Below are positions 3,255 through 20,251 of a stretch of DNA of 21,958 nucleotides, piece by piece. The position numbers and the translations under genes were made by a program. How positions within the stretch are numbered: position 1 is the first letter of the stretch; each line of letters starts with the position of its first letter. The notes below the pieces were generated by a model that ran no database searches, had not been told where the DNA came from, and saw only the letters and a list, made by a program, of their open reading frames with translations. The stretch comes from a virus, in IMG/VR virus record IMGVR_UViG_3300046747_000016, positions 1 through 21,958 of that record; one strand, written 5' to 3'.

Positions 3255-3277
3255 GCTATTCATGATAGAGTGCCGCA

Positions 3278-3336
3278 TGCGGCTAGGGGGCACCCGAAAT
3301 CGAGCTAGTCACTCGCTGCCGCAATCCCTCATGACT
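3278..3336 (+). promoter_or_regulatory. Structured leader RNA candidate (copy B): three-way junction with pseudoknot
   Basis: On the plus strand, bases 3278-3283 (TGCGGC) pair with 3318-3323 (GCCGCA) to close a junction. Inside are a small hairpin (GGG 3286-3288, loop GGCA, CCC 3293-3295) and a second hairpin CGAG-CTAGTCA-CTCG at 3301-3315. The loop bases AGTCA (3307-3311) are complementary to TGACT at 3332-3336, which would make a pseudoknot. The structure ends 34 bases before the ATG at 3358, and an AGG Shine-Dalgarno lies between. The same architecture with different stem bases occurs ahead of the HNH gene at 15289-15349. A competing palindrome (GCCGCATGCGGC, 3272-3283) overlaps the closing stem. 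The fold was drawn by eye and is not thermodynamically tested. I do not recognise it as a known RNA family. Confidence 0.55.
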
Positions 3337-3357
3337 TCCTTTGACCAGGTCCTCACC

Positions 3358-4113
3358 ATGAAAGACTCAAAAAAACCTATTTCTGTGGGCGATATCTTCA
3401 CCATTAACGATGGTGGAACCTGCACTGTTGTTGAGTACTTACGCGACAGACAGATAACCATTCAGCACAATGACAAGCATGCACACCGCGCTGTGGTGGA
3501 AGGTGGGAACTTGCGAAAGGGGCAAATCAGAAATCCATTCTCCCCCAGTGTATTCGGTGTAGGCCTTATAGGCTTCGGAAGACATAAAGTTAAATCAGAA
3601 GGAAAGAAGACGCCTGCATACACCCTATGGAACGGCATAATCCAGCGCGGCTACTCCGAAGAGTTTAAGCGCGAAAACCCATCCTACCGGGATGTATCGG
3701 TGGCACCTGAATGGCACAACTACCAGTGCTTTGCCGAATGGTTCCACGCCCAAGAATATTCACAATCTCCAGAATTCCAGCTAGATAAGGATTTGATCCT
3801 GGCCGGGAATCGAGAATACTCGCCATCAGCGTGTTCTTTTGTTCCGTCTCAGATAAACAGTATTCTTAATGATTGCGCTGGAAGGCGCGGAAAATTCAAG
3901 CAAGGCGTTAGCTTTGTTGATCGGAGGAATTCATACGTCGCCAGAATCAGCATTAGGGGTATCCCGGTTAAGATTGGATCATTTCCTGGCGAGGAAGCGG
4001 CGTATTCTGCTTACCTTTCCGCCAAGACCGAATACGTCCGAACCATGGCTGAAGAATACAAACCAGTCCTTCACCCTAAGGTTTACCAGAACCTGAGAAG
4101 CTGGACCCTGTAA
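3358..4113 (+). CDS. Homing-endonuclease-like protein with C-terminal AP2 domain
   Basis: This 251-residue protein is the only convincing plus-strand gene. I chose ATG 3358 because its upstream sequence (GACC-AGG-8 bases-ATG) aligns with the start of the HNH gene at 15265; in-frame ATGs at 3262 and 3331 lack a Shine-Dalgarno and would put the folded leader inside the gene. Residues 8-75 form a small beta domain (VGDIFTINDGG to GVGLIGFG). Residues 88-172 carry the phage HNH-like pattern with W91, W119, LDKDLILAGNREYSP and SFVPSQIN, but no clear catalytic His pair. Residues 182-235 (QGVSFVDRRNSYVARI, then IGSFPGEEAAYSAYLSAK) fit an AP2 DNA-binding domain. It is probably a free-standing homing nuclease or its DNA-binding relic, inserted between the sheath and tube genes. 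Activity is uncertain. Confidence 0.75.
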   Translation: MKDSKKPISVGDIFTINDGGTCTVVEYLRDRQITIQHNDKHAHRAVVEGGNLRKGQIRNPFSPSVFGVGLIGFGRHKVKSEGKKTPAYTLWNGIIQRGYSEEFKRENPSYRDVSVAPEWHNYQCFAEWFHAQEYSQSPEFQLDKDLILAGNREYSPSACSFVPSQINSILNDCAGRRGKFKQGVSFVDRRNSYVARISIRGIPVKIGSFPGEEAAYSAYLSAKTEYVRTMAEEYKPVLHPKVYQNLRSWTL

Positions 4114-4118
4114 CAAAT

Positions 4119-4143
4119 AAGGCCCCAATTGGGGCCTTTTGTT
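4119..4143. terminator. Bidirectional rho-independent terminator between convergent nuclease and sheath genes
   Basis: A perfect 20-base inverted repeat (AAGGCCCCAATTGGGGCCTT, 4119-4138) is followed on the plus strand by TTGTTTTA and on the minus strand by ATTTGTTAC. It starts six bases after the plus-strand nuclease stop and lies just downstream of the minus-strand sheath stop. Termination should be strong for the nuclease gene and somewhat weaker in the late direction because that U tract is interrupted. Late transcription must read through it, or restart, to reach the tube, chaperone and tape measure genes. Confidence 0.88.
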
Positions 4144-5616
4144 TTACTGGACGTTGATGGAAGCCATGTTGACGCTCTGAACCGATCCGCCGTCCGTATA
4201 CCAGAAGGTGAACGGGAAAGATCCACGGTTGCCGCGTGTTTGCGCGTCAGGCGTCTTTATATCCAGAGCCCAACCCTTGGCGAGCAGGTTAGGGATCACA
4301 TCGTAGCCGGCCTGGGTGTTGATGATCGACTTTTGCTGCTCGCTCAGTGCGCCCGGATCAATCAGTGGAACGATGCCACCGAAGTTCAGCATCTCGCTGA
4401 TAGGATCGGCAGCGGCAGCTCGGTGTATCGCCTTGCCCGCGTCGTTGTATGAAATGAAGCCATAGCTGGTAAGCATGGTCATCATTGCCAGCTGGAATTG
4501 AGCGTTCATGTAGATCTGGTTGACGTAGTTATCCAGCCACTTGAATTGTCCAGAAACGGCGCCGTTCACGTTGAATCGGAATTCATCGTTGGCCGTGGCG
4601 AACTCGCCATAGAAGGTGTATCCATTACTCATCAGCGCGGTGTAATCCGCCTCATCGGTGATCGACGCGGCAATGCCGGACTGCTTCATGAACATGATGT
4701 TTCGGCGACCGTTGGTGCGCTTGAAGTCGATTGCTGCGATGCCGCCGCACAAGGCGGCAACTTGGTCAATGGTTCCGTAGTACGGAACAGTTCCATTTTG
4801 CTCGGTATCCTCCAGCCACTTGCCGAAACTGGCGTCGTTGTTGGCGATCAGGCCGGCACCCGTTTTATCCAGCGCAACGAATGCGAACCGGCTGTTCTGC
4901 AGGGTATTCCAGGCCGCAAACGACTCCAGGACTTGTCGATCTTGCTCTTGCGCGTGCGCGATCACGCCGAAGTTTTGGGTTCTATTTAGGGCATAGGCCA
5001 TAAGTTCGGCCTCGCTCATGACTGCTCGACCCTTGTCGATCTGCGCGCCTGCCGCCTGATCCAGCTTGATACCCAGGCCGACTTCGCCAGATCCGAAGCC
5101 GATGCTCGCCGTGGCGCCAGTATCAACTGTGGTCAGCTCAAAGCATTGTTGCTGCTCGTTGAAGTCGCCGACAAAGTTAGATACGTCAGTCAGAAGAGCT
5201 GCGGCTTCAGAGAAGCTGGTGACGGTCGAGAAGTTCACAGGCACCGTGATAGGAGTGCCATCAACAGAAACAGTCAGGCTTCCGGTAATCGCCTTCAGCT
5301 GTGTGAGTGTCATTCCGCGCACGCTGGCGCCACGCAGGATCGCAGGAATAGCGACTGTAGGGCTTTCTACAACGTTCAGAGCACCAGGCAACTTAAAGGC
5401 GCCGTCATAGCCTAGAAAGTAGCGCGTTGCAAACTTGTACTCATCAGAGGTCAAGCCAAAGAATGCGCCAACCTCGGCAGCACTGCCAAATAGCTGGACG
5501 CCGATAACGCGTTCTGACCCGCTGGTGATCAGCAGGGTATTCATTGCCAGGGGATTGCCGCCAGTGCCAATGGCAGACGGGTTGATCGTGACAATTCGAC
5601 TTGCCGGGATAGACAT
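4144..5616 (-). CDS. Tail sheath protein (DUF3383)
   Basis: This 490-residue protein forms the contractile outer sheath of the tail. It starts at ATG 5616, one base after the previous stop, with CAGGAGT as Shine-Dalgarno. The N-terminal SRIVTINPSAIGTGGNPLAMN and the YFLGYDGAFKLPGALNV region match the DUF3383 sheath-like family seen in myophages that also carry a DUF3277 tube. The length agrees with that family. The stop TAA lies beside the bidirectional terminator at 4119. Sheath and tube genes are usually adjacent; here they are separated by an inverted nuclease gene. The family call is from sequence pattern and gene order. Confidence 0.85.
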   Translation of the reverse strand: MSIPASRIVTINPSAIGTGGNPLAMNTLLITSGSERVIGVQLFGSAAEVGAFFGLTSDEYKFATRYFLGYDGAFKLPGALNVVESPTVAIPAILRGASVRGMTLTQLKAITGSLTVSVDGTPITVPVNFSTVTSFSEAAALLTDVSNFVGDFNEQQQCFELTTVDTGATASIGFGSGEVGLGIKLDQAAGAQIDKGRAVMSEAELMAYALNRTQNFGVIAHAQEQDRQVLESFAAWNTLQNSRFAFVALDKTGAGLIANNDASFGKWLEDTEQNGTVPYYGTIDQVAALCGGIAAIDFKRTNGRRNIMFMKQSGIAASITDEADYTALMSNGYTFYGEFATANDEFRFNVNGAVSGQFKWLDNYVNQIYMNAQFQLAMMTMLTSYGFISYNDAGKAIHRAAAADPISEMLNFGGIVPLIDPGALSEQQKSIINTQAGYDVIPNLLAKGWALDIKTPDAQTRGNRGSFPFTFWYTDGGSVQSVNMASINVQ

Positions 5617-13332: not shown

Positions 13333-14567
13333 CTTAATATTCCGGGGTCAATGTTGAGTCCTCGCCGCTTCATTGCTGGCTCCAGCGCGTAACGCATAGC
13401 ATCAATGGCGTGGTTATGATCATCGACAGGCACCGGCATAATGTCCTCGGTGTGCTTGTCCACCTTGTAACTATACAGTCTAAATTCTTTCGCCGTGTTT
13501 TTGCAGCGCGGATGAATGATCACTTGGTCAAACGACCTGATGTATTCAATCCCGTCCTCGACGCTTCCCTTGCCTTTCTCGGCAGCCTTGATGCGTGGCA
13601 GACCCTTGCGCTTTAGGTAGCTGATCGTTTCCGGGCGGGCGTTGTCAGCGCGGCAGGCGTGCTTCTCAATGTCTGGTACGGCCTTGCGGATGTGATCGAC
13701 AGTGTGGTCAATCTCCAGGCCGATCTGGTACGCCTCGTATTCGACGTAGAGCTTGCCCTCATTGATCCACAGCTTGACGGCTGCTGTCGGGTCATTCGCA
13801 AACCCGAAGTCGAGGCCGTAATAAGGGCCTTGCCATTTGATATCCGGAGTGAAGTCCTGGACCGCGTACTTTCCTCGGAAGATCTGCGCCTCGCTGATCT
13901 GCCTGTATGCACCTTCCCATATCCACGCATATTCCTCGTGCGGAAGGTTTCTCAAATCCCTTTGACGCTCAAGCTCAAGCACGTCAGGCAGCCAGGGGTT
14001 GTCGGAATGGTTAATTTCCACCACAACGCCATCGCCGCCCAGGTCAGTCTTGCGGAACCTTATATCTGTTGGACTGCCCTCGTTCTCTGGATTATAGGAA
14101 ACCCAGATCTCCGAATCATCAGCGCGCACGGTAGGCAGAAGCTTTTTCCATGCCAAATCACTTACCGTCTCGGCCTCGTCAATCCATGCGATCAAGATGC
14201 GCGCCTTGGATTTTATGCTGTCCAGGTTGTGACGGAGCCCCGCGAAAGCGAAGTCAACAGCGCCGCACCTGGTGCGAATGAACTTCTCTCCTATCTCGTA
14301 GACGGAGGATAGCCATGGCTCAGAAAGGATCGCGTGCTTGATCTCTTCCATGGACGATTCGCCCAGAGAGTTCATGTATTCGCGAGCGCACAGCAAAATC
14401 CCTCGCTCGCCATTGGCGGCATACATGGCCCCTCGGATTGCAATCATCTTGGCGAAGGTGAAGGTCTTTCCTGATCCACGCCCCCCATGCGCAACCCTGT
14501 AGCGCATCTTAGTTGGGGCGAACAAGGGTATAAGTTTTGGCGGTATCTCTATGCGAAGCGTACTCAT
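13329..14567 (-). CDS. terL: Terminase large subunit (PBSX-type ATPase-nuclease)
   Basis: This 412-residue DNA-packaging motor starts at ATG 14567, overlapping the HNH stop (ATGA); a GTG three codons earlier is less likely. The Walker A motif GGRGSGKT is at residues 28-35 and Walker B ILIAWIDEAE at about 124-133. The C-terminal RNase H-like nuclease shows Asp253 in YYGLDFGFANDPT, Asp308 in CRADNARPETI and Asp389 in HNHAIDAMRYAL. All key residues are present, so the enzyme looks intact. There is no strong Shine-Dalgarno, and translation probably depends on coupling to the HNH gene that now separates it from the small subunit gene. Confidence 0.93.
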   Translation of the reverse strand: MSTLRIEIPPKLIPLFAPTKMRYRVAHGGRGSGKTFTFAKMIAIRGAMYAANGERGILLCAREYMNSLGESSMEEIKHAILSEPWLSSVYEIGEKFIRTRCGAVDFAFAGLRHNLDSIKSKARILIAWIDEAETVSDLAWKKLLPTVRADDSEIWVSYNPENEGSPTDIRFRKTDLGGDGVVVEINHSDNPWLPDVLELERQRDLRNLPHEEYAWIWEGAYRQISEAQIFRGKYAVQDFTPDIKWQGPYYGLDFGFANDPTAAVKLWINEGKLYVEYEAYQIGLEIDHTVDHIRKAVPDIEKHACRADNARPETISYLKRKGLPRIKAAEKGKGSVEDGIEYIRSFDQVIIHPRCKNTAKEFRLYSYKVDKHTEDIMPVPVDDHNHAIDAMRYALEPAMKRRGLNIDPGILR

Positions 14568-15265
14568 ATCCGACACTGCGCTACCAGGGCAAACCTAGCT
14601 CCCTTTGATTGATTTTCACTCGCCCACATAGGTCTGAGGTTTTTCAAGGCGTTAATCTTCTTCGGGCATATAACCCCCAGCCTTATCATCTCTGCAACCG
14701 GAATAATATGGTCTATATGCCATAAGCCATAATTACCCCAGCCCATGCCATCAGCGAACTGCTTTTCAATATGCTGCTTAAGCGCGAGCGGGCTGTAGCC
14801 AAGCTCACTTTTGGTAGATCCATTTTTACGCGATCCCGTGGCTACCAGCGTTCTTTTCAGCATGTTTCTTGCCGACGTGGCTATCTTGTAGTTTTCGCAA
14901 TTCCTAAGCGTTTCTCGATAGTACCTGAGATATTGGTGGCGTCCTTTGTCGCTGCGGATGTATTTCCTGTTGTATTCAGCGGATTTATGAGGGTTTGCTT
15001 CGTAGAACGCCTTAACCCTAGCGTCTCGGCTTTCTGCATTCCTTCGAGAATATTCGCGCTCTCTTTTCCTGTGCGCCTCAATATCATTATCTCGGTATTT
15101 CCTTGCGTTCTCCCGCATGCGCTCCGCGTTTTCTGCATAGCGTTTGTTTTTTGCGGATTTAACGCATTCCTTGCATGCGTACGCAAGCTTGCCAGGGGAG
15201 CGCTCATAGAACCCATTCAGGGCCTTTTCTGTTTTGCACTTAGAGCAGAATTGGGTATCAGTCAT
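14564..15265 (-). CDS. HNH homing endonuclease inserted between terS and terL
   Basis: This 233-residue protein starts at ATG 15265 behind GAGG eight bases upstream; an earlier in-frame TTG at 15283 is rejected. Residues 7-34 form a four-cysteine zinc ribbon (C7, C10, C31, C34). Residues 40-125 are a long charged helix rich in Lys, Arg and Glu that probably grips DNA. The HNH core is at about 182-222: WHIDHIIPV (H183, D185, H186), LKNLRPM (N209) and ENQSKG (N218). All catalytic positions are present. It is a free-standing mobile nuclease of the kind often found at the terminase genes, likely cutting phages that lack it. Its last codons overlap the terL start, and its upstream leader resembles that of the plus-strand nuclease gene. 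Confidence 0.87.
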   Translation of the reverse strand: MTDTQFCSKCKTEKALNGFYERSPGKLAYACKECVKSAKNKRYAENAERMRENARKYRDNDIEAHRKREREYSRRNAESRDARVKAFYEANPHKSAEYNRKYIRSDKGRHQYLRYYRETLRNCENYKIATSARNMLKRTLVATGSRKNGSTKSELGYSPLALKQHIEKQFADGMGWGNYGLWHIDHIIPVAEMIRLGVICPKKINALKNLRPMWASENQSKGARFALVAQCRI

Positions 15266-15288
15266 GGTGTACGCCTCGGTCAAAAGGG

Positions 15289-15349
15289 TAGTCAGGGGAG
15301 GGTGGCCGCCGAGTGACTAGCTCGGCACGGCTTGCAAACCGCTGCCACC
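15289..15349 (-). promoter_or_regulatory. Structured leader RNA candidate (copy A): three-way junction with pseudoknot
   Basis: Read on the minus strand, GGTGGC (15349-15344) pairs with GCCACC (15306-15301). Inside are CGGTT-TGCA-AGCCG (15341-15328, five pairs with one U-G) and GCCGAG-CTAGTCA-CTCGGC (15326-15308, six pairs). Only one to two bases join the helices. The loop bases TAGTCA (15319-15314) are fully complementary to TGACTA at 15294-15289, giving a six-pair pseudoknot. The structure ends 35 bases before the HNH start codon at 15265. The copy at 3278 shares the loop, the junction layout, the pseudoknot and the distance, while its outer stem differs. It occupies most of the terS-HNH gap. 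Folding is by eye, and no named RNA family is recognised. Confidence 0.6.
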
Positions 15350-15363
15350 ATGGAATTCTACCG

Positions 15364-17425: not shown

Positions 17426-17499
17426 TGGAGCGGGCGCCGGGAATCGAACCCGAATAGCTAGCTTGGAAGGCTAGAACATAACCATTCTGTCACGCCCGC
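17426..17499 (-). tRNA. tRNA-Gly (anticodon UCC) with encoded CCA
   Basis: The minus strand folds as a tRNA: acceptor GCGGGCG pairs with CGCCCGC, the anticodon arm CTAGC-CTTCCAA-GCTAG gives anticodon UCC, and the T arm CGGGTTCGATTCCCG contains the invariant TTCGA. The discriminator U and a genomically encoded CCA follow. It closely resembles the enterobacterial tRNA-Gly(UCC). The D arm is one base shorter than in that tRNA, and its four-pair stem includes a weak G-U. Phage tRNAs usually supplement codons over-represented in phage genes, here GGA. The gene lies in an early/late intergenic stretch with no integrase in view. Confidence 0.9.
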
Positions 17500-17555: not shown

Positions 17556-17666
17556 TTAGCGGCGAATTCCTCGCGCAAGCCTGTCCCGGCGAATCAGTCG
17601 GCGGCAACCCCCAAGGCAGCTGATGGACAGAAGAATCATAAACCCGACGTAGCAGTAAATAATCAT
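17556..17666 (-). CDS. 36-residue membrane microprotein coupled to ninG
   Basis: ATG 17666 overlaps the ninG stop (ATGA), the same coupling used by most neighbouring genes. The frame stays open for 36 codons. The first 21 residues are hydrophobic (MIIYCYVGFMILLSISCLGG), and the remaining 15 include eight arginines, which fits a single-span protein with its C-terminus in the cytoplasm. No family is recognised. The remaining gap down to the tRNA holds no further convincing gene. Confidence 0.5.
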   Translation of the reverse strand: MIIYCYVGFMILLSISCLGGCRRLIRRDRLARGIRR

Positions 17667-18259
17667 TCGGCATTCCTCTTTAGCTCTCTGGTCCTGGCTC
17701 GGTAGTGAGCCGCCATATCAATCAGATCCTGCGTCGAATACTTCCTTGGCTCTTGGTCGCACTCCAGAAGCACCACTGCTGTGAGCCCGATGCGCTCGAT
17801 CAATCCAAGCCGGTACGCGACGACATTTCCCGACAGGAACTGGTTATCGTGCTTACTTTGGGCGTGGGCGTTCCTTTCGTCGAAGCGCAAATGGGGCGAT
17901 GAGCCAACCGAGCGATAGTGCCCGCAGTCGGTCATGTTCCCCGACCAGTCCAGGGGGCGCCCACTCGATATGCAGGCATGGCCGGCGACACGATCACGCC
18001 ATCGGATGAACTCATTGAAAGCCCGCTGGCATTCCTTCATGTGGTCGGATCGCGTCTTGAGCTTTTCCTTGCGCTCCTTGGTCTTTGTGCGCTCAACCTG
18101 AACTATTGCCTTTTTGGCCTTCTCCTGATTCTTCGGCGCATCAATGATCGCGCAGGCCGGACTGCAAACAGCTTGGCCCATGCGAGCAGGGACGAATAAG
18201 GCTCTGCATGATTCGACCCGGCACTTCTTCGGGCGCGGCCTCTTGGCTTGCAGGCTCAT
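17663..18259 (-). CDS. ninG: NinG recombination protein
   Basis: This 198-residue protein starts at ATG 18259, overlapping the preceding stop (ATGA). The N-terminal zinc-binding segment has C13, C18, C32 and C36 (KKCRVESCRALFVP, VCSPAC). A long basic helix follows (residues 45-75), and then the conserved core FNEFIRWRDRVAGHACISSG, CGHYRSVGSSPHLRFDERNAHAQ. This is the lambda NinG (Rap) family, which helps resolve or stimulate recombination intermediates during phage replication. Length and motif order agree with the family. Confidence 0.9.
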   Translation of the reverse strand: MSLQAKRPRPKKCRVESCRALFVPARMGQAVCSPACAIIDAPKNQEKAKKAIVQVERTKTKERKEKLKTRSDHMKECQRAFNEFIRWRDRVAGHACISSGRPLDWSGNMTDCGHYRSVGSSPHLRFDERNAHAQSKHDNQFLSGNVVAYRLGLIERIGLTAVVLLECDQEPRKYSTQDLIDMAAHYRARTRELKRNAE

Positions 18260-18468
18260 ATGGTTAGCTCATCAAGATGGCGGCGAACAACCTCAAGCTC
18301 AGCTTTCAGCGCGGCAGCCTCGGCCTGCGCCACCAGCATTCGGCCTTTAGCTGTTCGGCGAGCAGCTCGATTCATCCATGGCGAAACGAACGACTCATAG
18401 GCGCGCTCGCGAGCTTCCGATATTTCTCTCTCGCGCAAAAACTCAGGACTTCCTCTGAATGGCGTCAC
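18256..18468 (-). CDS. Small helical protein of the nin-like region, unknown function
   Basis: This 70-residue protein starts at GTG 18468, overlapping the preceding stop, and its own stop overlaps ninG. It is highly charged and predicted helical throughout (EFLREREISEARERAYES, then a coiled-coil-like VAQAEAAALKAELEVVRRHLDEL). The segment PWMNRAARRTAKGRMLV may contact nucleic acid. No named family is recognised. The tight overlaps on both sides and the natural residue composition support a real gene. Confidence 0.65.
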   Translation of the reverse strand: MTPFRGSPEFLREREISEARERAYESFVSPWMNRAARRTAKGRMLVAQAEAAALKAELEVVRRHLDELTI

Positions 18469-19052
18469 GCAAAATTCCCCATCTGGTCAGCAGCACTCAT
18501 GGCCGCCTCTTCACTTTCAAAATGCGCCGACAGCACCAGGCGCCAGCAGGCGTTAAACACGTCGCGGCACAGTGGCTGGAATGCCGTCTCATCCATGGAT
18601 GACCAGCTGATCGACTTGGCCTCTTTGCGAACCCCGTCAGGCGTGCGCACCAGGTGGAAATGGCCAGCCTCAATCGTCACCCATTCCCGAAAGGCCTCGC
18701 GGCTCTTATCGACTGCCGGGAAGCGCTCGGCGCGGTCTTGCTCAAGCTGCGCGATGTAGGCCGCGACTGCGCCTGACAATTGCCCCGGCTTGCCACTGGC
18801 CTGCTCGAAGAACTTGGCCAGCCCTTGGATGCCGCGAAGCTCTTGGCGTGGCACCAGGCCGCCGACCGGCTCGAAGTAGTCAAAGGCCAGATCCAGCATT
18901 TTGAAGAAGCGCCGATGGAATCCGGCGTTCCGCATCTTGGTGAACTTGCCGTGAATGGTCTGGCCGGACTTCCACGCCTGCATGGTTTCGCGGTCGGCCT
19001 CGGTGGCGGGCACAAGGCCGTGCGAGGTTCTGATTAGGGCGATGTCAGCCAT
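18465..19052 (-). CDS. DUF1367 family protein
   Basis: This 195-residue protein starts at ATG 19052 with AAGGA eight bases upstream. The N-terminal pattern IALIRTSHGLVPATEADRE followed by GKFTKMRNAGFHRRFFKMLDLAFDYF is the DUF1367 signature of lambdoid and Pseudomonas phage nin-like regions. The C-terminal part (FNACWRLVLSAHFESEEAAMS) is also typical. The biochemical role is unknown; its place beside ninG suggests replication or recombination. It overlaps the end of the small membrane gene upstream. Confidence 0.82.
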   Translation of the reverse strand: MADIALIRTSHGLVPATEADRETMQAWKSGQTIHGKFTKMRNAGFHRRFFKMLDLAFDYFEPVGGLVPRQELRGIQGLAKFFEQASGKPGQLSGAVAAYIAQLEQDRAERFPAVDKSREAFREWVTIEAGHFHLVRTPDGVRKEAKSISWSSMDETAFQPLCRDVFNACWRLVLSAHFESEEAAMSAADQMGNFA

Positions 19053-19203
19053 TATGCCGATCCTTCCACATGATCCAAGCCATGGCTATGCCGTGATACG
19101 CAAACATCGCAGCGCATGCCACAGCGAACCATGGAGAAGGTTCAGTGTTTGAGGCGATCAGCCAGATAGGGCCGGACAATGCGTGGAACTGGATATTGGT
19201 CAT
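19045..19203 (-). CDS. 52-residue membrane protein, unknown function
   Basis: ATG 19203 overlaps the stop of the preceding gene (ATGA), and the stop overlaps the DUF1367 start, so it fills the gap exactly. The protein has hydrophobic stretches at about residues 9-18 and 25-46 (WFAVACAAMFAYHGIAMAWI) and a basic tail (WKDRHNG). One or two membrane spans are likely. It is paired with another small membrane gene just upstream. No family is recognised. Confidence 0.6.
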   Translation of the reverse strand: MTNIQFHALSGPIWLIASNTEPSPWFAVACAAMFAYHGIAMAWIMWKDRHNG

Positions 19204-19406
19204 TGGCTCGCCGCCTTCTTCCATTCTTTGATCTGCCAGTTAGCAATCCCAGCTGGCCATAGCACTACAAGGCCGATCATTGTCACCGGAACACCCGCGA
19301 CAAAATCCTGAATGCTCCAATCATGACCACCCTCAATCACCTCGGCCACAATGCCAGCCCAAATAATTAGACCGGTGATGCCGTATGCGATCAGAAATGC
19401 GATCAT
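19200..19406 (-). CDS. 68-residue two-helix membrane protein, unknown function
   Basis: ATG 19406 overlaps the Rha/KilAC stop (ATGA), with GAGG upstream. Two hydrophobic segments lie at about residues 3-22 (AFLIAYGITGLIIWAGIVAE) and 37-54 (VAGVPVTMIGLVVLWPAG), separated by an acidic loop and followed by a basic tail (KEWKKAASQ). It and the 52-residue protein downstream may form a membrane pair. A superinfection-exclusion role is possible but not shown by the sequence. Confidence 0.65.
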   Translation of the reverse strand: MIAFLIAYGITGLIIWAGIVAEVIEGGHDWSIQDFVAGVPVTMIGLVVLWPAGIANWQIKEWKKAASQ

Positions 19407-20131
19407 GCCGACACCTCAAGACTCAGGGCCTTTTCAGGTTCTATTTTCTTTGAGTCGCGCAGCAGGCGGGCGACGTACTCTATTCCGCGAGGGGTAAATT
19501 TGGCAGATGTGAATGCGTGGTCGTTGTGCTCAGCAGTCCCGGTCTTCACCTCAAACCGACCAGCATCGATGTGATTGGCATACGGAACCCACTCGCCGCC
19601 GATCTGGTATTGAATCTTGTGTTCGACCAGAAAGGCCCGGAATAGGTTCTCTTTGATGCCCAGCAGCTTTGCGACTTGGCGGAAGCCTTGAAGCCCGGTT
19701 GCCTCGACGTAACGGTCTACAAATTCAGCTTTTGGGGCGGCTATAGCCAATGCCTGCTGAGCAATCTGCTTTTGCTCTGTCGCGTCGGCCCATGCTCGGG
19801 CGGATGCCACTGGGTCATCGAAGTTTGGCAAGGCTGGTGCCAGTGATGCCGCGACGATCTCTTCGAGCTGATGAAGGCGAATAATTACCTTGCGGCGCAG
19901 TCGAATGCTGTACCCGGTTATCAGTGTCTCCGTCAGTTCTTTGTCAAGATGGAAAACATCTGTATACCCGCGACCATCCTTAATTTCACCATAGCCCAAA
20001 ACTGGGCCATCTTTTTGCAGCTCGGTAAGCATTTTTCGTATGTCACGAATAACGTGGCGATGCTCTTTTTCGCAAACCTCTGCGATTTCACGACTGGTCA
20101 TGCTGACCATATTTTGCGCTACTGAATTCAT
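19403..20131 (-). CDS. Rha-family regulator with C-terminal KilAC antirepressor domain
   Basis: This 242-residue protein starts at ATG 20131 (MNSVAQNMVSMTSREIAEV), with GGAG upstream; an earlier in-frame TTG is rejected. Residues 10-92 are the Rha/pRha domain (SREIAEVCEKEHRHVIRDI, GYTDVFHLDKELTETLITGYS). Residues about 125-232 are KilAC/ANT (APKAEFVDRYVEATG, FRQVAKLLGIKENLF, KFTPRGIEYVARLL). Proteins of this type bind DNA or repressors and act in the lysis-lysogeny or early-late switch; Rha itself interferes with growth in some hosts. The leader upstream holds interleaved inverted repeats that could control its translation or transcription. Confidence 0.87.
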   Translation of the reverse strand: MNSVAQNMVSMTSREIAEVCEKEHRHVIRDIRKMLTELQKDGPVLGYGEIKDGRGYTDVFHLDKELTETLITGYSIRLRRKVIIRLHQLEEIVAASLAPALPNFDDPVASARAWADATEQKQIAQQALAIAAPKAEFVDRYVEATGLQGFRQVAKLLGIKENLFRAFLVEHKIQYQIGGEWVPYANHIDAGRFEVKTGTAEHNDHAFTSAKFTPRGIEYVARLLRDSKKIEPEKALSLEVSA

Positions 20132-20143
20132 TTTATTCTCCAA

Positions 20144-20251
20144 GCGCAAAAGGCAACCCGCTTACCTCGGGTCAGATTGGATGCAAGTACACCCACCGAG
20201 AAAACGAATTGCCTTTTGCGCACTTGTTGGTTATTGGGATCTGACACCCGA
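20144..20251 (-). promoter_or_regulatory. Leader with interleaved inverted repeats upstream of the Rha/KilAC gene
   Basis: Four segments occur in the order a-b-a'-b' on the minus strand. Segment a is TCGGGTGTCAGAT (20251-20239) and a' is ATCTGACCCGA (20177-20167); they pair over 11 bases with a two-base bulge. Segment b is GCGCAAAAGGCAA (20221-20209) and b' is TTGCCTTTTGCGC (20156-20144), a perfect 13-base match. A short hairpin ACCCG-AGGTAAG-CGGGT (20172-20156) overlaps a' and b'. The b' arm ends a few bases before the Shine-Dalgarno of the gene. The arms cannot all pair in a simple nested way, so they suggest a pseudoknot or alternative structures. DNA-binding sites for a dimeric regulator are another possibility. 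Confidence 0.6.

Follow-up and report, generated by a model that had tools for sequence, protein, structure and literature searches.

Phage leaders related to int-alpA RNA carry a loop complementary to two downstream sites: a probable cis-acting translational switch

Introduction

Why should two unrelated nuclease genes of one phage be preceded by what looks like the same structured leader? The window analysed here, a 21,958-nucleotide stretch of viral DNA (IMG/VR record IMGVR_UViG_3300046747_000016), raises this question, and an earlier note on it took the leader for an undescribed module carried with mobile nucleases. In the T4 family, RNA structures sequester the ribosome-binding site (RBS) of homing endonuclease genes (I-TevI, segB, mobE) and limit their translation (PMC2988022). 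Relatives found outside the window lead us to a related answer of wider reach, in which the leader is probably a switch acting in cis on many kinds of phage gene.

The two leaders of the window

In gene content the window suggests an early region of temperate lambdoid type joined to a module of contractile-tail type. Pfam identifies NinG, DUF1367 and a Rha/KilAC antirepressor-type protein at 17663-20149 (-), a tRNA-Gly gene (anticodon TCC) lies at 17426-17499 (-), and blastn of the window genes against phages returned almost nothing.

The plus leader occupies 3278-3323 (+). Its outer stem P1 (TGCGGC 3278-3283 with GCCGCA 3318-3323) encloses P2 (GGG/CCC, 3286-3295), followed by GAAA at 3296-3299, and P3 (CGAG/CTCG, 3301-3315) with the loop CTAGTCA at 3305-3311. 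Site A, TGACT at 3332-3336 (+), begins 8 nt 3′ of P1 and complements the P3 loop; the 5-nt pairing at offset 8 falls inside the family range of 8-12. A candidate site B, TGACCAGG at 3342-3349 (+), adjoins the Shine-Dalgarno sequence (SD) AGG (3347-3349), and its TGAC complements the same loop, weakly (4 exact pairs, about -5.1 kcal/mol with flanking pairs). This second complementary site overlying the SD is additional to the TGACT site of the earlier note, and it points to mechanism. A -10-like hexamer, TAGAGT with TGA before it, can be read at 3266-3271 (+), 12 nt 5′ of P1; a strict scan found no consensus sigma-70 promoter for this leader. The palindrome GCCGCATGCGGC at 3272-3283 (+) places a copy of the P1 3′ strand directly upstream of P1, which could act as a competitor if transcription began further upstream.

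The gene behind this leader (3358-4113, +; ATG 3358) encodes an HNH/AP2-type nuclease of 251 aa (phrog_953, E 6e-58), and its start is backed by the homolog L044. An inverted repeat with a T-run, GGCCCCAATTGGGGCCTTTTGTTTT at 4107-4150 (+), is a likely intrinsic terminator. Gene and terminator (3358-4150) lie between tail genes, and the neighbours run the opposite way. With its own leader and likely terminator, the nuclease gene looks like a self-contained cassette.

The minus leader occupies 15301-15349 (-), with a minimum-free-energy fold of -25.2 kcal/mol and a homolog in a viral contig (L019). P1 pairs GGTGGC (15349-15344) with GCCACC (15306-15301), P2 lies at about 15342-15328, and P3 (GCCGAG/CTCGGC, 15326-15308) has the loop CTAGTCA at 15320-15314. 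Site A, TGACTA at 15289-15294 (-), has 6 nt complementary to the loop at offset 6, slightly outside the 8-12 range; the homolog L019 has 6 nt at offset 8. The candidate site B, TGACCGAGG at 15274-15282 (-), combines TGAC with the SD GAGG (15277-15274), again with weak loop complementarity (4 exact pairs, about -3.8 kcal/mol). A -10-like hexamer, TAGAAT, can be read at 15355-15360 (-), 11 nt 5′ of P1. The gene (14564-15265, -; ATG 15265) encodes an endonuclease VII-like/HNH nuclease of 233 aa (phrog_1035, E 1e-18) and sits between terS (PF03592) and terL (PF04466), slightly overlapping the terL start. Phages Bas81 and YX3973 have unrelated HNH genes at the equivalent terL place, each with a leader of the same kind.

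What the earlier note had observed in this pair was borne out. Each leader stands directly 5′ of a different nuclease gene; P1 ends 34 and 35 nt before the ATG, with an SD between; and the minimum-free-energy fold is, for both, the three-way junction with P2, P3 and the loop CTAGTCA that the note had drawn. The coding sequences are unrelated, as it had said: the nucleases do not align (BLASTP E 0.43) and belong to separate families, phrog_953 and phrog_1035. The shared 15-mer CGAGCTAGTCACTCG is exact at 3301-3315 (+) and 15310-15324 (-), and no third copy exists in the window at up to 3 mismatches. Since 12 of 100 shuffles gave two or more matches at that tolerance, the 15-mer alone is weak evidence, a caution that the note had itself expressed. 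Folding free energy (z -0.5 for the plus leader, -2.5 for the minus leader) is unimpressive by itself and was dropped as evidence.

The note had also seen pairing kept while bases changed in the two outer stems. The stems are as it gave them, but the window copies appear to be of two subtypes, so that their two P1 sequences alone prove no covariation; the family-wide data below supply that proof. The leaders differ in P2 and in the junctions. The core elements UAG after P1 and GAAA after P2 are present in the plus leader (CTAGG..CCCGAAA) and missing from the minus leader, whose junction is tighter than type I. The two therefore look like different junction subtypes.

Relatives outside the window

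The Rfam int-alpA model (RF02996) scored the plus leader at 20.5 bits, below its gathering cut-off of 35.8, and did not match the minus leader; a separate scan of the window with the int-alpA model gave no match. E. coli prototypes of int-alpA score 62-65 bits with RF02996, and six phage leaders pass the cut-off (L136, L088, L110, L084, L077 and L147; 37.6-54.9 bits). We built a covariance model, R1, from 55 outside copies, none of them from the window. With R1 the plus leader scores 54.2 bits (E 1.3e-14), and nothing else in the window is convincing; the minus leader is absent from its 21 matches, which reach down to 4.2 bits. Judged by these scores, the plus leader is a member of an int-alpA-like superfamily, type I. 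The minus leader looks like a type II-like variant, a filing made on anatomy only.

Blastn with the leader found intergenic copies in phages of Vibrio, Shewanella, Acinetobacter, Aeromonas, Salmonella, Klebsiella and E. coli, and in these named phages each copy lies directly 5′ of a gene. Scanning viral contigs for the tail motif added true relatives: L019 lies before an HNH gene, L044 before an AP2-type nuclease gene, L045 before a DNA helicase gene, and L024 and others before genes of small unknown proteins. As search keys the short sequences were poor: of 23 viral matches to CGAGCTAGTCACTCG only L019 was a true relative, and the three matches to the 20-mer tail in genome contigs were all due to chance. 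A pattern of one P1 sequence plus the core, with the loop left free, gave at least 120 matches in IMG/VR and 2 when reversed. Among sampled Pseudomonadota genomes, 15 of 249 had an R1 match at E up to 1e-5, a lower bound like all our bacterial tallies, few candidates having been scored per genome; in Actinomycetota none of 149 genomes had a match at that threshold, in a shallow first pass with no positive control. These counts make the int-alpA-like class a common one in phages of Pseudomonadota. Copies occur in virulent-type and temperate phages alike.

Downstream genes

The earlier note proposed looking for copies before nuclease genes elsewhere, and many homing-type nuclease genes in other phages are indeed so preceded. 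Of the 71 non-redundant proteins encoded downstream, HNH endonucleases form the commonest families, with as many as 9 members in a single PHROG family and AP2 in 4. Next come DUF927/primase-type, DUF1376 and replication O-like proteins, integrases, methyltransferases, helicases, KilA-N, Rha and others. Nucleases are thus frequent yet a minority, and the idea of a module of mobile nucleases has to be given up: the same leader stands before genes for helicase, primase, replication proteins, integrase, methyltransferase and small unknown proteins.

A second junction subtype

Type II, with the architecture GGC-AAA-P2-T-P3-T, is seen in Salmonella and Klebsiella phages, where it takes the place of type I before related nucleases at equivalent loci. 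Before terL, Bas81 has type I whereas YX3973 and ZCEC08 have type II; before an endonuclease gene, VLCpiS13f and Bas80 have type I whereas VLCpiS13e has type II. The L019 contig, the sole viral contig with a minus-type leader, also has a type I leader (L205, G001:C1:36855-36923) whose loop differs from that of L019, and so both kinds of leader coexist there as they do in the window.

Conservation of the fold

Of the cells in the alignment of 55 copies, 89% pair, and 12 of the 14 pairs vary on both sides. None of 500 shuffles reached any of five measures, and shifting the partners by 1-3 columns made the score collapse. P1 was fixed by the search pattern in the pattern-selected copies, so that its covariation rests on the remaining ones; among the bacterial copies that the model detected, P1 varies widely in sequence, with UAG and CGAA largely kept.

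Complementarity of the loop with two downstream sites

We examined loop pairing in 69 non-redundant copies, each with an SD and an open reading frame. Their P3 loops are highly diverse (63 distinct), and each tends to match its own downstream sequence. The longest exact match between loop and site A averages 4.91 nt with the copy's own tail and 2.32 nt with swapped tails (z 13.9, n=69), which extends to the whole family the loop complementarity of TGACT(A) that the earlier note had seen, correctly, in both window leaders. Site B, over the SD, behaves likewise, with means of 4.67 nt for own and 2.96 nt for swapped tails (z 10.9, n=69). R1 itself has site A columns, which it treats as unpaired; in 25 independent copies, detected by the model or as additional leaders in genomes that have several, z is 7.7 for A and 6.9 for B. 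Duplexes with the copy's own sites have median energies of -7.3 (A) and -6.8 (B); with swapped tails the medians are -2.8 and -3.7.

The geometry is nearly constant. Site A starts 8-12 nt 3′ of P1 in 60 of 63 copies and leaves 16-25 nt to the start codon; from the end of site B to the start codon the distance is mostly 4-8 nt; and the spacer after P1 is poor in G at positions 5-8 (3 of 276). Both sites are present in 59 copies, and in every one of these A and B draw on at least 3 common loop bases, so the two pairings would be mutually exclusive. A few copies are without a clear site B or site A (L102, L106 and L192, for example). The E. coli int-alpA prototypes (L203, L204) have loop, site A and SD complementarity arranged alike.

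Across the family, -10-like hexamers are most frequent 12 nt 5′ of P1, and the transcript is therefore expected to begin at P1. A U5 run follows P1 in just 6 of the 69 copies, and on this count we rejected a reading of P1 as terminator. One copy is unlike the others in that an intrinsic terminator (ccgccttcgggcggttttttt) separates leader from gene (L090:4564-4650).

Seven genomes with several copies allow own and cross pairing to be compared, at means of 6.06 nt and 3.0 nt. Each copy's pair of loop and target is thus, as far as the sequences tell, private within its genome. The loops of such genomes differ, and a trans regulon with one loop for all copies of a genome was discarded. The window, with one loop (CTAGTCA) for two genes, is the exception beside these genomes, and cross-talk between its two copies could in principle occur, the loop being common to both.

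Proposed mechanism and alternatives

We consider it probable that the leader is a cis-acting translational switch, in which a loop private to each gene chooses between a decoy, site A, and an SD-masking site, site B. Transcription would begin at P1, and the compact three-way junction would fold at the 5′ end of the mRNA, its P3 loop serving as antisense to two copies of the target on the same transcript. Pairing with B would block ribosome binding and hold expression of the gene at a low level or off. If the loop paired instead with A, at its fixed distance after P1, a pseudoknot would form and the SD would stay free, making this presumably the on state. With both states using the same loop bases, and at nearly equal energy, a small push might tip the balance; it could come from the order in which the nascent RNA folds, from a protein of host or phage, or from a ligand bound at the conserved junction. 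Its own loop and target pair would make the control private to each gene, and limiting a costly nuclease may be the benefit. The conserved fold, the covarying pseudoknot of loop and downstream site, and a placement suited to translational control agree with the earlier note, which had listed translational control among the possible roles. The plus leader would be the type I example and the minus leader a variant junction; because site B is weak in both, the evidence for the window genes favours the predicted A pseudoknot over SD masking.

A more tentative extension, which we put forward as a possibility only, makes these leaders a phage-wide class of two-state switches whose constant UAG/GAAA core senses one shared signal (a ligand, a host protein or a cue of the infection stage, for instance) and moves the gene-specific loop between decoy and SD. 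If so, many unrelated phage genes would answer one cue through private antisense pairs.

The main rival to control in cis is an antisense sRNA acting in trans, as c4 of P1/P7 does: the 5′ structure, processed or terminated, would bind sites A and B of later transcripts, for autorepression or to confer immunity to another copy of that gene. In its favour, int-alpA is listed in Rfam as an sRNA, and c4 too is a phage RNA with a defined fold, binding in the region of its target's RBS (PMC12197685). Private loops would fit the specificity of immunity, two targets per mRNA could let a cis and a trans copy bind together, and the U-runs of 6 copies would suit a short terminated RNA. That such runs are confined to 6 of 69, however, speaks against this reading, as do the P1-A spacing of 8-12 nt (60/63) and the G-poor spacer (3/276), which indicate intramolecular geometry; we regard it as unlikely.

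Less likely again is a leader that only represses, in which A and B both hinder ribosome loading, A by way of a pseudoknot beside the SD, and relief comes from ribosomes, helicases or a factor, site A being no decoy. Ending 16-25 nt before the start codon, site A is near enough to disturb 30S loading, and a stable hairpin directly upstream of the RBS is reported for seg43 of Aeromonas phage 25 (PMC2988022). Repression alone nevertheless leaves unexplained why the target is kept twice, with near-equal energy and overlapping use of the loop.

The recombination or homing site that the earlier note had also entertained, a DNA-level element (for homing, recombination or replication) travelling with mobile nucleases, could draw on the many copies that adjoin homing-type nucleases and on the minus copy in the terS/terL junction, but it is largely refuted by RNA pair covariation on a single strand, tied to the -10 hexamer, SD and start codon, and by copies before helicase, primase, integrase and methyltransferase genes, and we give it hardly any credence. 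A ribozyme or group I intron was rejected, Rfam giving no match to one in the window.

Comparison with known systems

Pseudoknot riboswitches of the preQ1 and SAM-II type are structured 5′ RNAs with a conserved core and a pseudoknot at or near the SD. The leaders described here resemble them in their conserved core and in a pseudoknot partner at or near the SD; unlike them, they have loop and target sequences that vary freely and two competing sites, and a ligand is only hypothetical.

The RBS hairpins of the T4 family are, as our leaders may be, RNA structures that hold down the translation of homing nucleases, whether free-standing or intron-borne (PMC2988022). They are, however, plain and made gene by gene, with no conserved module, pseudoknot, decoy or non-nuclease genes.

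The c4 antisense RNA of P1/P7 and P4 (RF01695), with its a1b1 targets (RF03163), is also a three-way junction with an antisense loop; it stands at the head of a phage operon and has the RBS region of that operon as its target (PMC12197685), an arrangement that we also saw in P4. It differs in its P1 of 17 bp, in being without the UAG/GAAA core, in targets that lie in a separate region up- or downstream, and in trans action, which has been shown. Up to E 5 the c4 model matched nothing in the window (positive control P4, 74.9 bits), nor did it match any of the leaders searched.

With int-alpA (RF02996) the leaders have in common the P1/P2/P3 junction, the core CUAG..CGAAA..CUG and a position 5′ of prophage genes. 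In its printed form the int-alpA model differs from them in showing no pairing downstream, neither a pseudoknot nor one with the SD, and the leaders also occur in virulent-type phages and before many kinds of gene. To judge from the family name, int-alpA presumably belongs between integrase and alpA-type genes; the E. coli prototypes follow an integrase, and the window copies stand before nuclease genes in the virion-gene region. The earlier note's impression of an undescribed element accordingly fails for the core fold, which Rfam holds as int-alpA (the plus copy scoring below its cut-off). What we believe to be new are the pseudoknot, the design with two sites, the second subtype and the spread across genes: the literature searched, which did not take in int-alpA's founding paper, contained no description of the pseudoknot, the competing SD site, the second subtype or the range of genes.

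We know of no function for int-alpA. Private, covarying pairing with its own sites and SD makes a cis role likely, and an orphan filed as an sRNA would so gain a concrete and testable one, as a translational regulator in cis. Phages would have in it a general means of holding nucleases, primases and other accessory genes low, a natural modular switch whose core is separate from its address.
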